Source: Arthrobacter sp. MYb213 (GTDB taxonomy: Bacteria; Actinomycetota; Actinomycetes; Actinomycetales; Micrococcaceae). From it: a stretch of 64,000 nucleotides of DNA. Positions 34,093 through 37,456 of the stretch are shown here, in pieces (the stretch's first letter is position 1; each line of letters starts with the position of its first letter). The stretch covers positions 62,001 through 126,000 of the forward strand of contig NZ_PCQA01000001.1 of the NCBI RefSeq assembly GCF_002979915.1. The letters are read 5' to 3'. The notes under the pieces were generated by a model. That model was given only the letters and a program-made list of their open reading frames with translations, was not told where the DNA came from and ran no database searches. The position numbers were made by a program, and so were the translations under genes.

Positions 34093-35154
34093 CTAAGCTG
34101 CGCGGTGTGCGGCCATCAATTCACGCAGTTTTGCGGTAAATGCGCGCACGTCCTCCTCGGTGGTGTCAAAGGAGCACATCCAGCGAACGTGGCCCGCTGC
34201 GCGGTCCCAGTCATAGAAGCGGAAGAGTTCACGCAACTGGTCGGAGACCTCGGTAGGCAACTGTGCAAAAACACCATTGGCTTGTGCCGGGTAGACCAGC
34301 TGAACTCCGTCGATCTCGGTGACCGCAGCGGCCAACTGTGCAGCCATCGCGTTAGAGTGACCGGCAAGCTCGCGCCACAGTCCGGTTCCGTAGAGCTCAA
34401 GCAACTGTGCGGAGATGAAACGCATCTTGCTGCCCAGCTGCATATTCATCTTGCGCAGGTATTTCAAATCCTGAGCTAATGCAGGATCTAGCGTCAGAAT
34501 TCCCTCGCCGAGCAGCAAGCCATTTTTGGTGCCGCCCAAAGAGACAATATCAACGCCAACATCCGTGGTCAGCTCGCGTAGTTCCACGCCAAGCGCGGCC
34601 GCCGCATTGGACAGGCGCGAGCCGTCCAAATGAACCTTCATACCCAGTTTGTGGGCGTGGTCGGTAATCGCGCGAATCTCCGCCGGAGTGTAGAGCGTCC
34701 CCAACTCCGTACCCTGGGTAATGGACACGGCCAAAGGTTGGGCACGATGCTCATCGCCCCAGCCCCAGGCTTCCTGGTCGATCAGTTCCGGGGTCAGCTT
34801 GCCATCAGCCGAGTTCACTTGCAGAAGTTTAAAGCCACCGATGCGTTCGGGAGCACCATTTTCATCCACGTTGATGTGCGCAGTATTCGCACAAATCACC
34901 GCTCCCCAGCGAGGAAGCAATGACTGCAACGCGGTCACATTGGCACCGGTTCCGTTAAACACCGGAAAAATCGCGGCGTTCTCGCCAAATAGTTTCTGCG
35001 CCATCTGATCCAGAGCCGCGGTGTAGTCGTCATCACCGTAGGCGCTTTGATGTCCGCCGTTTGCGCGAGTGATCGCCTCGAGGATGCGTGGGTGCACGCC
35101 GGAGTAATTATCGGAAGCGAATCCGCGCACCGCAGGGTCGTGGCTAATGGTCAT
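34093..35154 (-). CDS. Threonine-aldolase-like PLP enzyme (beta-eliminating lyase fold)
   Basis: This 353-residue fold-type I PLP enzyme has the cofactor lysine in SLGGTKNG (about residue 195) and VHLDGSRLSNA for the pyridoxal-nitrogen aspartate. Low-specificity L-threonine aldolases split threonine to glycine and acetaldehyde. The actual substrate here is uncertain, since it is the last gene of a conserved operon with an SDR and DUF6421. The ATG at 35154 (MTISHDPAVRGFASDNYSG) is chosen with AAAGGAC upstream; an ATG at 35202 is less likely. Confidence 0.87.
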   Translation of the reverse strand: MTISHDPAVRGFASDNYSGVHPRILEAITRANGGHQSAYGDDDYTAALDQMAQKLFGENAAIFPVFNGTGANVTALQSLLPRWGAVICANTAHINVDENGAPERIGGFKLLQVNSADGKLTPELIDQEAWGWGDEHRAQPLAVSITQGTELGTLYTPAEIRAITDHAHKLGMKVHLDGSRLSNAAAALGVELRELTTDVGVDIVSLGGTKNGLLLGEGILTLDPALAQDLKYLRKMNMQLGSKMRFISAQLLELYGTGLWRELAGHSNAMAAQLAAAVTEIDGVQLVYPAQANGVFAQLPTEVSDQLRELFRFYDWDRAAGHVRWMCSFDTTEEDVRAFTAKLRELMAAHRAA

Positions 35155-35185
35155 AGGTATTGAGTCCTTTTGATGGTGGTACGTA

Positions 35186-35224
35186 GGTGGTGGTGTGCTC
35201 ACTTAAAAACGCTACACCACCACC
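35186..35224 (-). terminator. Hairpin between SDR and threonine-aldolase-like genes
   Basis: An 11-bp perfect stem of GGTGGTGGTGT and its complement (35186-35196 and 35214-35224) has a 17-nt loop. There is no T-run after it, so it may attenuate or protect mRNA instead of fully terminating. Confidence 0.5.
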
Positions 35225-35236
35225 GTTGTATCCTGC

Positions 35237-35926
35237 TTAGGCGGTAGCCAATGGCAGGCGTTGGCCGTTGACTTCCGCTGGGTCCGTGCTCAGTAGTTCA
35301 ACGGCTGCCGTGGCCAGAATCGACACGGGAGTGTGGCCAGTTGGCGCCTCAGTAGCCGACTTGTCGCTCAATGCTTTGACAACCCAACTGAGCGCTGCTG
35401 CCTGCGGAGCCTGCTTGCTGAAAAGTCTTGCAATGGCGTTTACCCAGTGCTCGGCTGCGGCCTTAACCGCACCATAATTGGCGTTGGAAGGAGTCGGATT
35501 CGTGACCGCCTGCGCGCTAACAATTGCTAGGCGACCGGCGTTTGAAGCTACCAGATCATCAACGAACACCCGGGTCGTATTACGCAACGTAGTCATCACG
35601 CTGGTATGGAGAAAATCCCAGTCAGCGTCGGACTGCCCGGTGATTGACTTACCGCCGCGCCAACCGCCCACCAGATGCAATAACACGTCGATTTTTCCAT
35701 GCTCCGCGTGTATGTGCTGCCCGAGGTCGGTTACCGCCTGCAGATCCGTGAGATCACAGACGTAGCGTGAGCTGACAAACCCGAGGCGCTCTTCCAAACG
35801 TTCGGCATTACTGCCGACCGCCAAAACGCGCGCCCCGGCATCGGAAAGTTCGCGGGCCACTGCGACTCCTGCAGCCGAGGTAGCCCCGGCGATGAGTACC
35901 AGTGGGTTATTTTCTACTTTGCTCAT
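35237..35926 (-). CDS. SDR-family oxidoreductase
   Basis: This 229-residue short-chain dehydrogenase has the cofactor motif GATSAAGVAVA (variant of TGxxxGxG), VGSNAERLEERL ending beta-2 and catalytic YGAVK with upstream serine in IVSAQAV. Length is slightly short. It starts 10 nt after DUF6421, so the two are one transcription unit. The substrate is unknown. Confidence 0.87.
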   Translation of the reverse strand: MSKVENNPLVLIAGATSAAGVAVARELSDAGARVLAVGSNAERLEERLGFVSSRYVCDLTDLQAVTDLGQHIHAEHGKIDVLLHLVGGWRGGKSITGQSDADWDFLHTSVMTTLRNTTRVFVDDLVASNAGRLAIVSAQAVTNPTPSNANYGAVKAAAEHWVNAIARLFSKQAPQAAALSWVVKALSDKSATEAPTGHTPVSILATAAVELLSTDPAEVNGQRLPLATA

Positions 35927-35936
35927 AAAACCGATC

Positions 35937-37310
35937 CTAGATGCTTGTTGCGCCGGTCATGCCACGAGTCGAGTCGATCACCGCGGCCATCTTCTTGTTG
36001 AGCGCTTCGTAGAACATCGACAGTGGGAACTCATCGTCCATGACCTGGTCGGTGATTTCGCGTAGCGGGGCAGTGAGTGGCAGCGCGTCAGGGCCCTTAG
36101 CCCACACAGAGGCGGGGTTCGGGGTCACCGTGGAAGAGACCAATTCATAGGCGGCCAGCCAGTGCGCAAGCTTCGGGCGGTCGATCGATTTCCAGTACAG
36201 TTCATCGATCGCATCCCCCAAGGCCGCAACGATTTCTGGTACCTGATCCCAATCGATGCTCAACTTGGTGTCGGTCCAGTGTAAAACATGGTGCTGGTGC
36301 ATCCAGGCGAACAATAGCTGGCCACCGAGTCCGTCGTAGTTACGCACTCGCGATCCGGTGATGGCAAAACGGAAGATCCGGTCGAAGATCACCGCGTACT
36401 GCACAAGCTTGGCGGTCTTAGCGGCCTGAGGGTCACTTTTCGGATCACTGGCGATCTTCATGGATTCGCGGAAAGCGGTCAGGTCGCAACGCAACTCTTC
36501 GAGCGAGTAGAGGAAGAATGGCATGCGCTGTTTGATCATGAATGGGTCAAATGGCAGGTCCCCGCGCATGTGGGTGCGATCGTGGATCAGATCCCACATG
36601 ATAAAGGTTTCTTCGGTTAGCTGCTGGTCGCTCAGGAGTTCTGCAGCGTCTTCAGGTAGCTGCAGGTTGGTGATCGCGGCGGCTTCCTTGAGCACCTTGC
36701 GAAAACGTGCGGCCTCGCGGTCCTGGAAGATGGCACCCCAAGTAAATGACGGGGTTTCGCGAATGGCTACGGACTCCGGAAAGAGCACCGCGGAGTTGGT
36801 GTCGTATCCAGCGGTGAAGTCCAAGAAACGCAGTGGTACGAACAGCGCGTTAGTGTAGCTGTTGGCTTCGAGCTCGGAGATAAAGTCAGGCCACATGACC
36901 TGCACCAGTACCGCTTCGAGATAGCGGTTGGTCGAGCCATTCTGCGTGTACATCGGGAAGAGCACCAGGTGTAGCAATCCGTCTTCACGCTGGGTTTGCG
37001 GCTGGAATTGAAGCAGCGCATCCAAAAAGTCAGGGACCCCGAAGTCGGCGCTTTCCCACTTGTTGAGGTCTGCGATGAGCGCGCGGAGGTAGGCCTCATC
37101 ATGCGCGAAGTATGGCAGGAGTTCTTCCAGTGCGGCCACGATGCGGGCGATTAGTTCGCGCGCTTCGCCGTGAGTTGCCGGGTCGGCGAGCGAGCCGTCC
37201 TTGGACTGCAGGCTCTGGAATTGCGTGGCAGAGGCCTTCAAGGTCAGCCATGCATCATGGGAAGCGAGCTGGTCCGCGGTGGCGCGTGGGGAGTGCTGGA
37301 GCTGAGTCAT
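35937..37310 (-). CDS. DUF6421 family protein
   Basis: This 457-residue soluble protein matches the DUF6421 family as I recall it. Segments such as NGSTNRYLEAVLVQVMWPDF, ETFIMWDLIHDRTHMRGDLPFDPFMIKQRMPFFLYSLEELRCDL and FAWMHQHHVLHW contain several invariant-looking histidines, and HDRTHMRGD looks like a metal site. No biochemical role is known to me. It is the first gene of the DUF6421-SDR-PLP operon and carries two 15-bp operator-like palindromes upstream. Confidence 0.85.
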   Translation of the reverse strand: MTQLQHSPRATADQLASHDAWLTLKASATQFQSLQSKDGSLADPATHGEARELIARIVAALEELLPYFAHDEAYLRALIADLNKWESADFGVPDFLDALLQFQPQTQREDGLLHLVLFPMYTQNGSTNRYLEAVLVQVMWPDFISELEANSYTNALFVPLRFLDFTAGYDTNSAVLFPESVAIRETPSFTWGAIFQDREAARFRKVLKEAAAITNLQLPEDAAELLSDQQLTEETFIMWDLIHDRTHMRGDLPFDPFMIKQRMPFFLYSLEELRCDLTAFRESMKIASDPKSDPQAAKTAKLVQYAVIFDRIFRFAITGSRVRNYDGLGGQLLFAWMHQHHVLHWTDTKLSIDWDQVPEIVAALGDAIDELYWKSIDRPKLAHWLAAYELVSSTVTPNPASVWAKGPDALPLTAPLREITDQVMDDEFPLSMFYEALNKKMAAVIDSTRGMTGATSI

Positions 37311-37376
37311 CGTGGGGCACCTCTTGAGATTCTTTGGTCGGTTCGTTGCTTAGCTATCACGCTACGCCCAAAGAAC

Positions 37377-37391
37377 AGCATTAGTAATGCT
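37377..37391. promoter_or_regulatory. Operator-like palindrome 1 upstream of DUF6421 operon
   Basis: AGCATTAGTAATGCT is a perfect 15-bp palindrome around a central G, 67 nt upstream of the DUF6421 start. A related copy lies 31 bp further upstream. Confidence 0.6.
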
Positions 37392-37407
37392 CGATCAGCT
37401 ATGAATA

Positions 37408-37422
37408 AGCATCTCTAATGCT
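37408..37422. promoter_or_regulatory. Operator-like palindrome 2 upstream of DUF6421 operon
   Basis: AGCATCTCTAATGCT matches palindrome 1 at 12 of 15 positions, with identical outer arms. Centre-to-centre distance is 31 bp, close to three DNA turns, so a dimeric regulator could bind both sites on one face. Confidence 0.55.
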
Positions 37423-37456
37423 AAGAGTGAGGTGCACCCCACGACGGTCAGAGGCT

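Follow-up and report, generated by a model that had tools for sequence, protein, structure and literature searches.

A gene for a DUF6421 protein, a gene for an SDR oxidoreductase and a gene for a PLP enzyme of the aldolase type form a three-gene unit in the window (the whole stretch of DNA that was analysed, 64,000 nucleotides in length), and comparison across genomes indicates that this partnership is genuine, conserved and, as far as can be judged, obligate, and that it is built around an enzyme family defined only recently. We favor the reading, to which we give a probability of roughly 0.45, that it is an amino-acid oxidation operon in which the DUF6421 protein would oxidize an amino acid, the SDR would re-reduce the pterin, and the aldolase would cleave the product.

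DUF6421, SDR and aldolase genes lie together well beyond the genus

The three genes of the window are on the minus strand. The DUF6421 gene (35937–37310) encodes a protein of 457 aa that matches PF19985 with 780.1 bits against a cut-off of 25. It is followed after 10 nt by the SDR gene (35237–35926; 229 aa; PF00106, 76.8 bits) and, after a further gap of 34 nt, by the gene for a PLP enzyme of the L-threonine/phenylserine aldolase type (34093–35202; 369 aa; PF01212, 163 bits), in which an in-frame ATG at 35154 is a possible alternative start. Between the SDR and PLP genes is a predicted stem-loop (35186–35224, minus strand; −27 kcal/mol, z −3.38), and stem-loops at this location may mean that aldolase expression is subject to attenuation or processing. 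An earlier note on this DNA, the coordinates of which (35237–37422) exclude the PLP gene, had described a DUF6421 gene, an SDR gene 10 nt on, a hairpin and a threonine-aldolase-like PLP enzyme, and the open reading frames, gaps and fold energy all agree with that description. The stem-loop is identical in the sister locus L060, and its sequence is not kept in the six other congeners compared. Strong stem-loops unrelated to that of the window are present in the SDR–aldolase gap of two congeners (L053 and L059). Beyond the PLP gene come genes for a DUF3000 protein and for an exonuclease/HRDC protein, msrB lies upstream of DUF6421, and the closest named genome is that of Glutamicibacter ardleyensis (98% for DUF6421).

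The same three genes had been named in the earlier note as neighbors in other actinobacteria, and a neighbor search bore this out, with the unit conserved far beyond the genus. Among 57 full-length DUF6421 loci, taken from relatives and from a phylum-wide sample (a partial PolE-like locus, L106, was set aside), the SDR gene is downstream in 55 and within 150 nt in 53, and the aldolase gene is near DUF6421 in 51 and within 300 nt in 50. We confirmed 531 related DUF6421 stretches in a named collection and used the best 80, which are mostly Arthrobacter-like; in these best 80 of 531 the SDR is present in 80 and the aldolase in 79 (in the remaining one, L179, the contig stops), and 4-nt overlaps between DUF6421 and the SDR gene are frequent. 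When 13 duplicates are removed and the window is excluded there are 124 distinct loci, with the SDR in 122 and the aldolase in 118, a count that includes aldolases at distances of 1.6–3 kb (L097, L183, L194, and L207). One locus, L074, was scored as aldolase-positive though its match consists of three short pieces.

Within the family to which the window belongs, the unit is present in 43 of the 60 genomes examined, and the block msrB–DUF6421–SDR–aldolase–DUF3000 is largely syntenic, so that linkage within that family alone is weak evidence. The order is also kept in eight loci of group f21 (genomes of 7.1–9.9 Mb) and in L108 and L109, which come from another class of the phylum; at L109 about 0.7 kb separates DUF6421 from the SDR gene. 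The flanking genes of the window's own family were not found at L099–L105, L107, L108, or L109, and still the order of the unit is kept. At two loci (L075 and L085) DUF6421 has an adjacent aldolase gene and no SDR gene. Extra open reading frames between the SDR and aldolase genes or past the aldolase gene (L183, L194, L207, L142, L150, and L077) appear by eye to be lineage-specific, with no recurrent pathway gene among them, and a crude clustering of neighbors gave no further shared biosynthetic gene; both results come from simple calling of open reading frames, which antisense frames in GC-rich DNA confuse. We note that the genome of L074 (G026:C17) has DUF6421–SDR twice, L074 being the second copy; an amino-acid permease gene diverges from it, a gene that by eye is LysR-like is close by, and it is preceded by an operator-like box, CACAAGAGTTTCTTATG.

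The presence of the three genes is nested across genomes

We surveyed 98 genomes, the window's own included, of which 46 contain DUF6421 and 52 do not, using cut-offs of E ≤ 1e-35 for the SDR profile (a strict value, with at most 28 first-look candidates scored per genome) and E ≤ 1e-50 for the aldolase. The SDR is present in 44 of the 46 genomes with DUF6421 and in 0 of the 52 without it (outside the window's genus, 26 of 28 versus 0 of 52; Fisher, 4.9e-19), and the 45 SDR matches listed all adjoin DUF6421. The corresponding figures for the aldolase are 45 of 46 and 18 of 52 (outside the genus, 27 of 28 versus 18 of 52; 2.2e-8). Because related genomes are not independent, both of these p values overstate the co-occurrence. 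The sole genome that has DUF6421 without the aldolase, G045, has a completeness of 82% and a contig that breaks off at this point, and the two in which DUF6421 is present and the SDR was not detected are G030 and G043. At four genomes (G032, G042, G079, and G085) the operon is without the aldolase and a copy lies elsewhere in the genome, as judged by a search for unlinked aldolases that left out the genome of L098 (G359); the unlinked copy of G085 has an identity of 53%, a value not above that of aldolases from genomes that lack DUF6421.

Taken together, in the 98 genomes the SDR was never detected without DUF6421, DUF6421 was never detected without the aldolase except in the incomplete G045, and the aldolase can stand alone. 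This nested presence suggests most simply that the SDR serves DUF6421 and that the aldolase either receives the product of DUF6421 or supplies its substrate. Pterin-4a-carbinolamine dehydratase was considered as a further partner, being present in 36 of 46 genomes with DUF6421 versus 26 of 52 without (p 0.006 in the 98 genomes), and was rejected on the counts from outside the window's genus (18 of 28 versus 26 of 52, p 0.25).

The DUF6421 protein belongs by sequence and modeled fold to the Fe/pterin (PolE) family

The earlier note treated DUF6421 as a protein of unknown function, a description that is outdated: PolE is a characterized DUF6421 member and an Fe/pterin oxidase, which in the polyoxin pathway carries out the Fe/pterin-dependent 3,4-desaturation of L-Ile (PMC12614342). 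According to that paper, PolE requires Fe(II), O2, and BH4, its activity is raised about 2–3 fold by dihydropteridine reductase, its metal motif is HE/DxxHx(21–23)E, and of its motif mutants one was insoluble and the rest were inactive (PMC12614342). The same paper likens PolE to DPP III and reports no sequence or structural homology to the pterin-dependent aromatic amino acid hydroxylases (PMC12614342). Among open-licence PMC papers this was the single one found on DUF6421, and none was found, by title or abstract start, on the DUF6421–SDR–aldolase operon.

The DUF6421 protein of the window contains the published motif in the form H243-D-R-T-H247-x23-E271. Two putative Fe ligands are provided by HDRTH (residues 243–247; 36570–36584, minus strand), and the putative third is one of E271–E272 (36495–36500, minus strand), the spacing H247-x23-E271 fitting that given in the PolE paper (PMC12614342). 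HDR[TS]H is found in all 57 fetched full-length loci and a Glu at the matching spacing in 56 of them, the script having reported another HDxxH first in L077; in a 44-row alignment (A2), H243, D244, H247, E271, and E272 are invariant. The protein matches the SnPolE and SmPolE chains with phmmer E values of 1.5e-10 to 3.5e-9. In a Foldseek search with its structural model, which has a mean pLDDT of 82.4 and is low at residues 250–254, just after the metal motif, PolE chains rank 1–6 (E 4.0e-12 to 1.2e-11; TM 0.71–0.72 by target length) and DPP III chains rank 7–18; the DPP III matches agree with the likeness to DPP III published for PolE (PMC12614342).

The protein thus shares with PolE (SnPolE 9j2e/9j2r and SmPolE 9j3g) its Pfam family, its HD/ExxH...E site and its fold, and its Asn-Tyr-Asp around Y325 aligns with that around Tyr280 of SnPolE. 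It differs in length (457 aa, whereas the PolE chains have 373–391 aa), in having an identity to PolE of 16–18% (Foldseek rows), and in being encoded in an operon with an SDR and an aldolase. Sequence and model together firmly favor placing the protein in the Fe/pterin (PolE) family. Separately, L106 (region G264:C1:6569105-6569509) encodes a remote protein of the DUF6421 type, ~373 aa long, that has HEYHH like SnPolE; it is the second such protein of an f21 genome in which an ordinary operon (L105) is also present, and L106 is perhaps a PolE-like copy for secondary metabolism.

The SDR shares a loop motif with dihydropteridine reductases, and the PLP enzyme resembles L-threonine aldolase

Where classical SDRs have NNAG, the SDR of the window has GGWRG (residues 87–91; 35654–35668, minus strand), its loop after strand β4 reading GGWRGG. 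The motif GGWRG is present in 55 of 55 SDRs of the fetched set and is invariant in the 44 rows of alignment A1, and the aligned position reads AGGW[AS]GG in the 5 dihydropteridine reductases, of 7, for which alignments were listed. GGWxGG is found in 0 of 25 other SDR loci of the window's own genome, these being the loci that a crude script parsed out of 28, with the operon SDR among the three left unparsed. Thirteen residues ahead of the catalytic Tyr, where SDRs usually have Ser, 29 of the 55 SDRs have Ala (including that of the window and those of all eight f21 loci) and 26 have Ser. Besides the GGWxGG-type loop, the operon SDR has in common with quinonoid dihydropteridine reductases (1hdr, 1dhr, 1ooe, 3orf, and 8b5t) that it is an SDR of similar length with YxxxK; it differs from them in that identity is 28% over 107 residues of the catalytic half. 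A pterin oxidase requires re-reduction of its pterin, and quinonoid dihydropteridine reductase activity is the function to be expected beside a pterin-dependent oxidase.

Membership of the dihydropteridine reductase family was not established by the whole fold or by the tree. The whole-sequence neighbors of the SDR are FabG/ribitol-dehydrogenase types, that is, classical SDRs; its neighbors by sequence and fold, also classical SDRs, include E. coli serine dehydrogenase 3asu, and dihydropteridine reductase is absent both from its listed whole-sequence matches and from its best 50 structural matches. In the tree, the SDR and the dihydropteridine reductases form a clade with support of 0.87–0.91 when the motif is included and of 0.53–0.81 on the part after the motif, and this clade is lost in 3 of 3 models once the motif columns are removed. 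Since the neighbors are classical SDRs and the clade depends on the motif, we suggest that the operon SDR probably works like a quinonoid dihydropteridine reductase, and not that it is one.

The PLP enzyme matches the L-threonine aldolase 5vye over residues 26–364 (phmmer E 3.9e-86) and contains a Beta_elim_lyase domain (PF01212) and a stretch, GGTKNG, that aligns to 5vye and that we take to hold the PLP lysine. The 5vye match and GGTKNG liken it to enzymes of the L-threonine aldolase type (5vye, 7w0i, and 1v72, which is labeled Aldolase), from which it is set apart by its linkage to a pterin-type oxidase and its retention alongside that oxidase. It scores below the NCBIfam cut-offs both for LtaE (the equivalog NF007825; 56.8 versus 312 bits) and for GntG (79.4 versus 230 bits).

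A distal operator is conserved upstream of DUF6421

The region upstream of DUF6421 contains a perfect palindrome, AGCATTAGTAATGCT (37377–37391, centre 37384), the 7-base arms of which (AGCATTA and TAATGCT) flank a single G, and a second copy (37408–37422, centre 37415) that is identical to it at 12 of 15 positions. Their centres are 31 bp apart, and these coordinates and matches agree with what the earlier note reported. The second copy is held within a putative distal operator box, TTAGCATTAGAGATGCTTATT (37404–37424, minus strand), which is conserved. With three mismatches or fewer allowed, the window contains 6 matches to the 15-mer on both strands, 4 of them being both strands of the two sites; 0.72 matches are expected, and 0 of 100 shuffles reach 6.

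When the promoters of the window and 17 congeners are aligned, their distal sites fall into a single box. Using a 21-base matrix made from these boxes and a threshold of p < 0.05 from 60 Markov shuffles per region, we found the box outside the genus in 86 of 110 regions, or in 82 of 105 after removal of duplicates, where about 5 would be expected; 69 of the 82 matches have the same strand orientation and lie between −60 and −165. Excluded from this test were the congener loci L129–L136, as well as L166 and L181 (short upstream DNA). The box was not found in the f21 loci except L105 (a minus-strand match, p 0.033), nor, at p < 0.05, at L108, L109, L076, L096, or L097. The distal box reads AGCATTAGnnnTGCT in the window's clade, and in the congener L057 the distal site is exactly AGCATTAGTAATGCT, which makes the proximal 15-mer a credible operator sequence.

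Among the window and the 58 fetched loci, the perfect proximal palindrome is present at its position in the window and L060 only. It lies just upstream of GCGTAGCGT; its left half resembles the other congeners, and only the window and L060 have the right half in full. This restriction means that the phased pair is not general. The earlier note had taken the paired operator to imply specific control; what stands of this is a conserved, imperfect distal operator upstream, and what does not is the generality of the proximal palindrome and hence of the pair. From the aligned promoters, the second site, over the promoter and 31 bp from the first, seems to have been gained in the window's lineage. 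The sequence GCGTAGCGT itself (37359–37367, minus strand), a possible −10 region, shows no variation among the congener promoters aligned (18 of 18), and a consensus sigma-70 scan of the promoter found no site; GCGTAGCGT may mark a core promoter of unusual type or an additional binding site.

A scan for further palindrome-like sites, which the earlier note had suggested, showed no excess over the control and detected no regulon. The 15-mer has no second exact copy in the window's own genome, and sites with three mismatches or fewer number 26 and 29, versus 33 and 32 for a reversed-pattern control. The congener form MATAAGN5CTTATK occurs at 6 sites in 17 genomes (the window's own and 16 congeners), 4 of which are upstream of DUF6421. 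The other two, which precede amino-acid transport genes (L111 and L115), are attributable to chance, the reversed control giving 9 sites in the same genomes. With no excess of the pattern over the control elsewhere, no wider regulon is visible. A gene of the Lrp/AsnC type lies upstream of DUF6421, on the opposite strand, in 4 of the 57 loci (L076, L096, L097, and L109), all of them loci at which the conserved box is absent at p < 0.05; Pfam gives this assignment for the L076 gene and for the first 90 residues of that of L109. These genes are candidate regulators of their respective operons. In the window's own genome, none of 13 AsnC-type loci is an obvious orthologue of the L076 regulator gene (identities 26–33%), and the closest operator-like matches at these 13 loci have 2 mismatches or more.

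A possible pathway and its alternatives

In the amino-acid oxidation operon that we propose, the DUF6421 protein, whose family assignment is well supported, would be an oxidase or oxygenase that uses non-haem Fe(II) and a tetrahydropterin and acts on a free amino acid, and it would most likely hydroxylate the β carbon of that amino acid. As PolE is remote and is a desaturase, hydroxylation by DUF6421 is an assumption. The SDR, as a dedicated partner, would most likely re-reduce the quinonoid dihydropterin with NAD(P)H, and the aldolase-type lyase would split the product of DUF6421 into glycine and an aldehyde, with expression controlled through the conserved distal operator and, in the window's lineage, through the second copy over the promoter. 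Pterin-dependent aromatic amino acid hydroxylases work with a carbinolamine dehydratase and a dihydropteridine reductase. The proposed operon is like these systems in coupling an Fe/pterin oxygenase to a pterin-recycling partner, and unlike them in having no consistent dehydratase partner and an extra aldolase. A narrower version, in which a DPP III-like Fe/pterin β-hydroxylase, a private SDR pterin reductase of separate descent (with GGWxGG convergent) and a glycine-releasing lyase would make up a previously undescribed system widespread in actinobacteria, we put forward tentatively, as something we would hesitate to bet on. The earlier note had raised an undescribed amino-alcohol or amino-acid pathway; the conserved unit and the PolE family make the amino-acid part plausible, and no finding bears on the amino-alcohol part.

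The same oxidase could instead be joined by an SDR that oxidizes a β-hydroxy amino acid or reduces the aldehyde from the aldolase, leaving a general reductase to recycle the pterin. E. coli YdfG oxidizes L-allo-threonine and serine, the SDR has classical SDRs, the E. coli serine dehydrogenase among them, as its neighbors in sequence and fold, and its strict co-occurrence with DUF6421 would suit an enzyme acting on an intermediate equally well. We regard this as a serious but somewhat unlikely alternative, against which count the Ala that replaces the usual catalytic Ser in 29 of 55 SDRs, the GGWRG that replaces NNAG as it does in dihydropteridine reductases, and the two loci without an SDR (L075 and L085), which are easier to explain if the SDR is a replaceable recycler.

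The pathway might also run in the biosynthetic direction, with the aldolase joining glycine to an aldehyde to give a β-hydroxy amino acid that DUF6421 would then desaturate or oxidize to a non-standard amino acid. PolE is itself biosynthetic, acting in polyoxin synthesis, and its authors infer unusual-amino-acid pathways from the many DUF6421 genes that lie beside putative amino-acid-modifying enzymes (PMC12614342). Nested co-occurrence is compatible with either direction, but the neighbor clustering, crude as it was, brought out no shared biosynthetic gene beyond the unit, and presence in 43 of 60 own-family genomes is more housekeeping-like than would be usual for a producer cluster; we therefore hold the biosynthetic direction to be improbable. 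Least of all do we expect that the genes merely share a conserved neighborhood and no common pathway: the synteny of the own-family block would fit this, whereas the retention of gene order with different flanks (L099–L105, L107, L108, and L109), the frequent 4-nt overlaps of DUF6421 and the SDR gene, and the dependence seen at the level of genomes speak against it.

For the main DUF6421 branch (531 stretches in one collection), the one paper found, PMC12614342, establishes a role solely within an antibiotic pathway. Two partners of DUF6421 emerge from the nested presence, one of which, the SDR, was seen only with DUF6421 in the surveyed genomes, and the role of DUF6421 in ordinary bacteria, together with the recycling of its pterin, becomes a three-protein question that can be put in vitro. 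If the proposed amino-acid oxidation operon is real, it would also supply a bacterial reductase that serves one pterin oxidase specifically, a helpful component for producing unusual amino acids.
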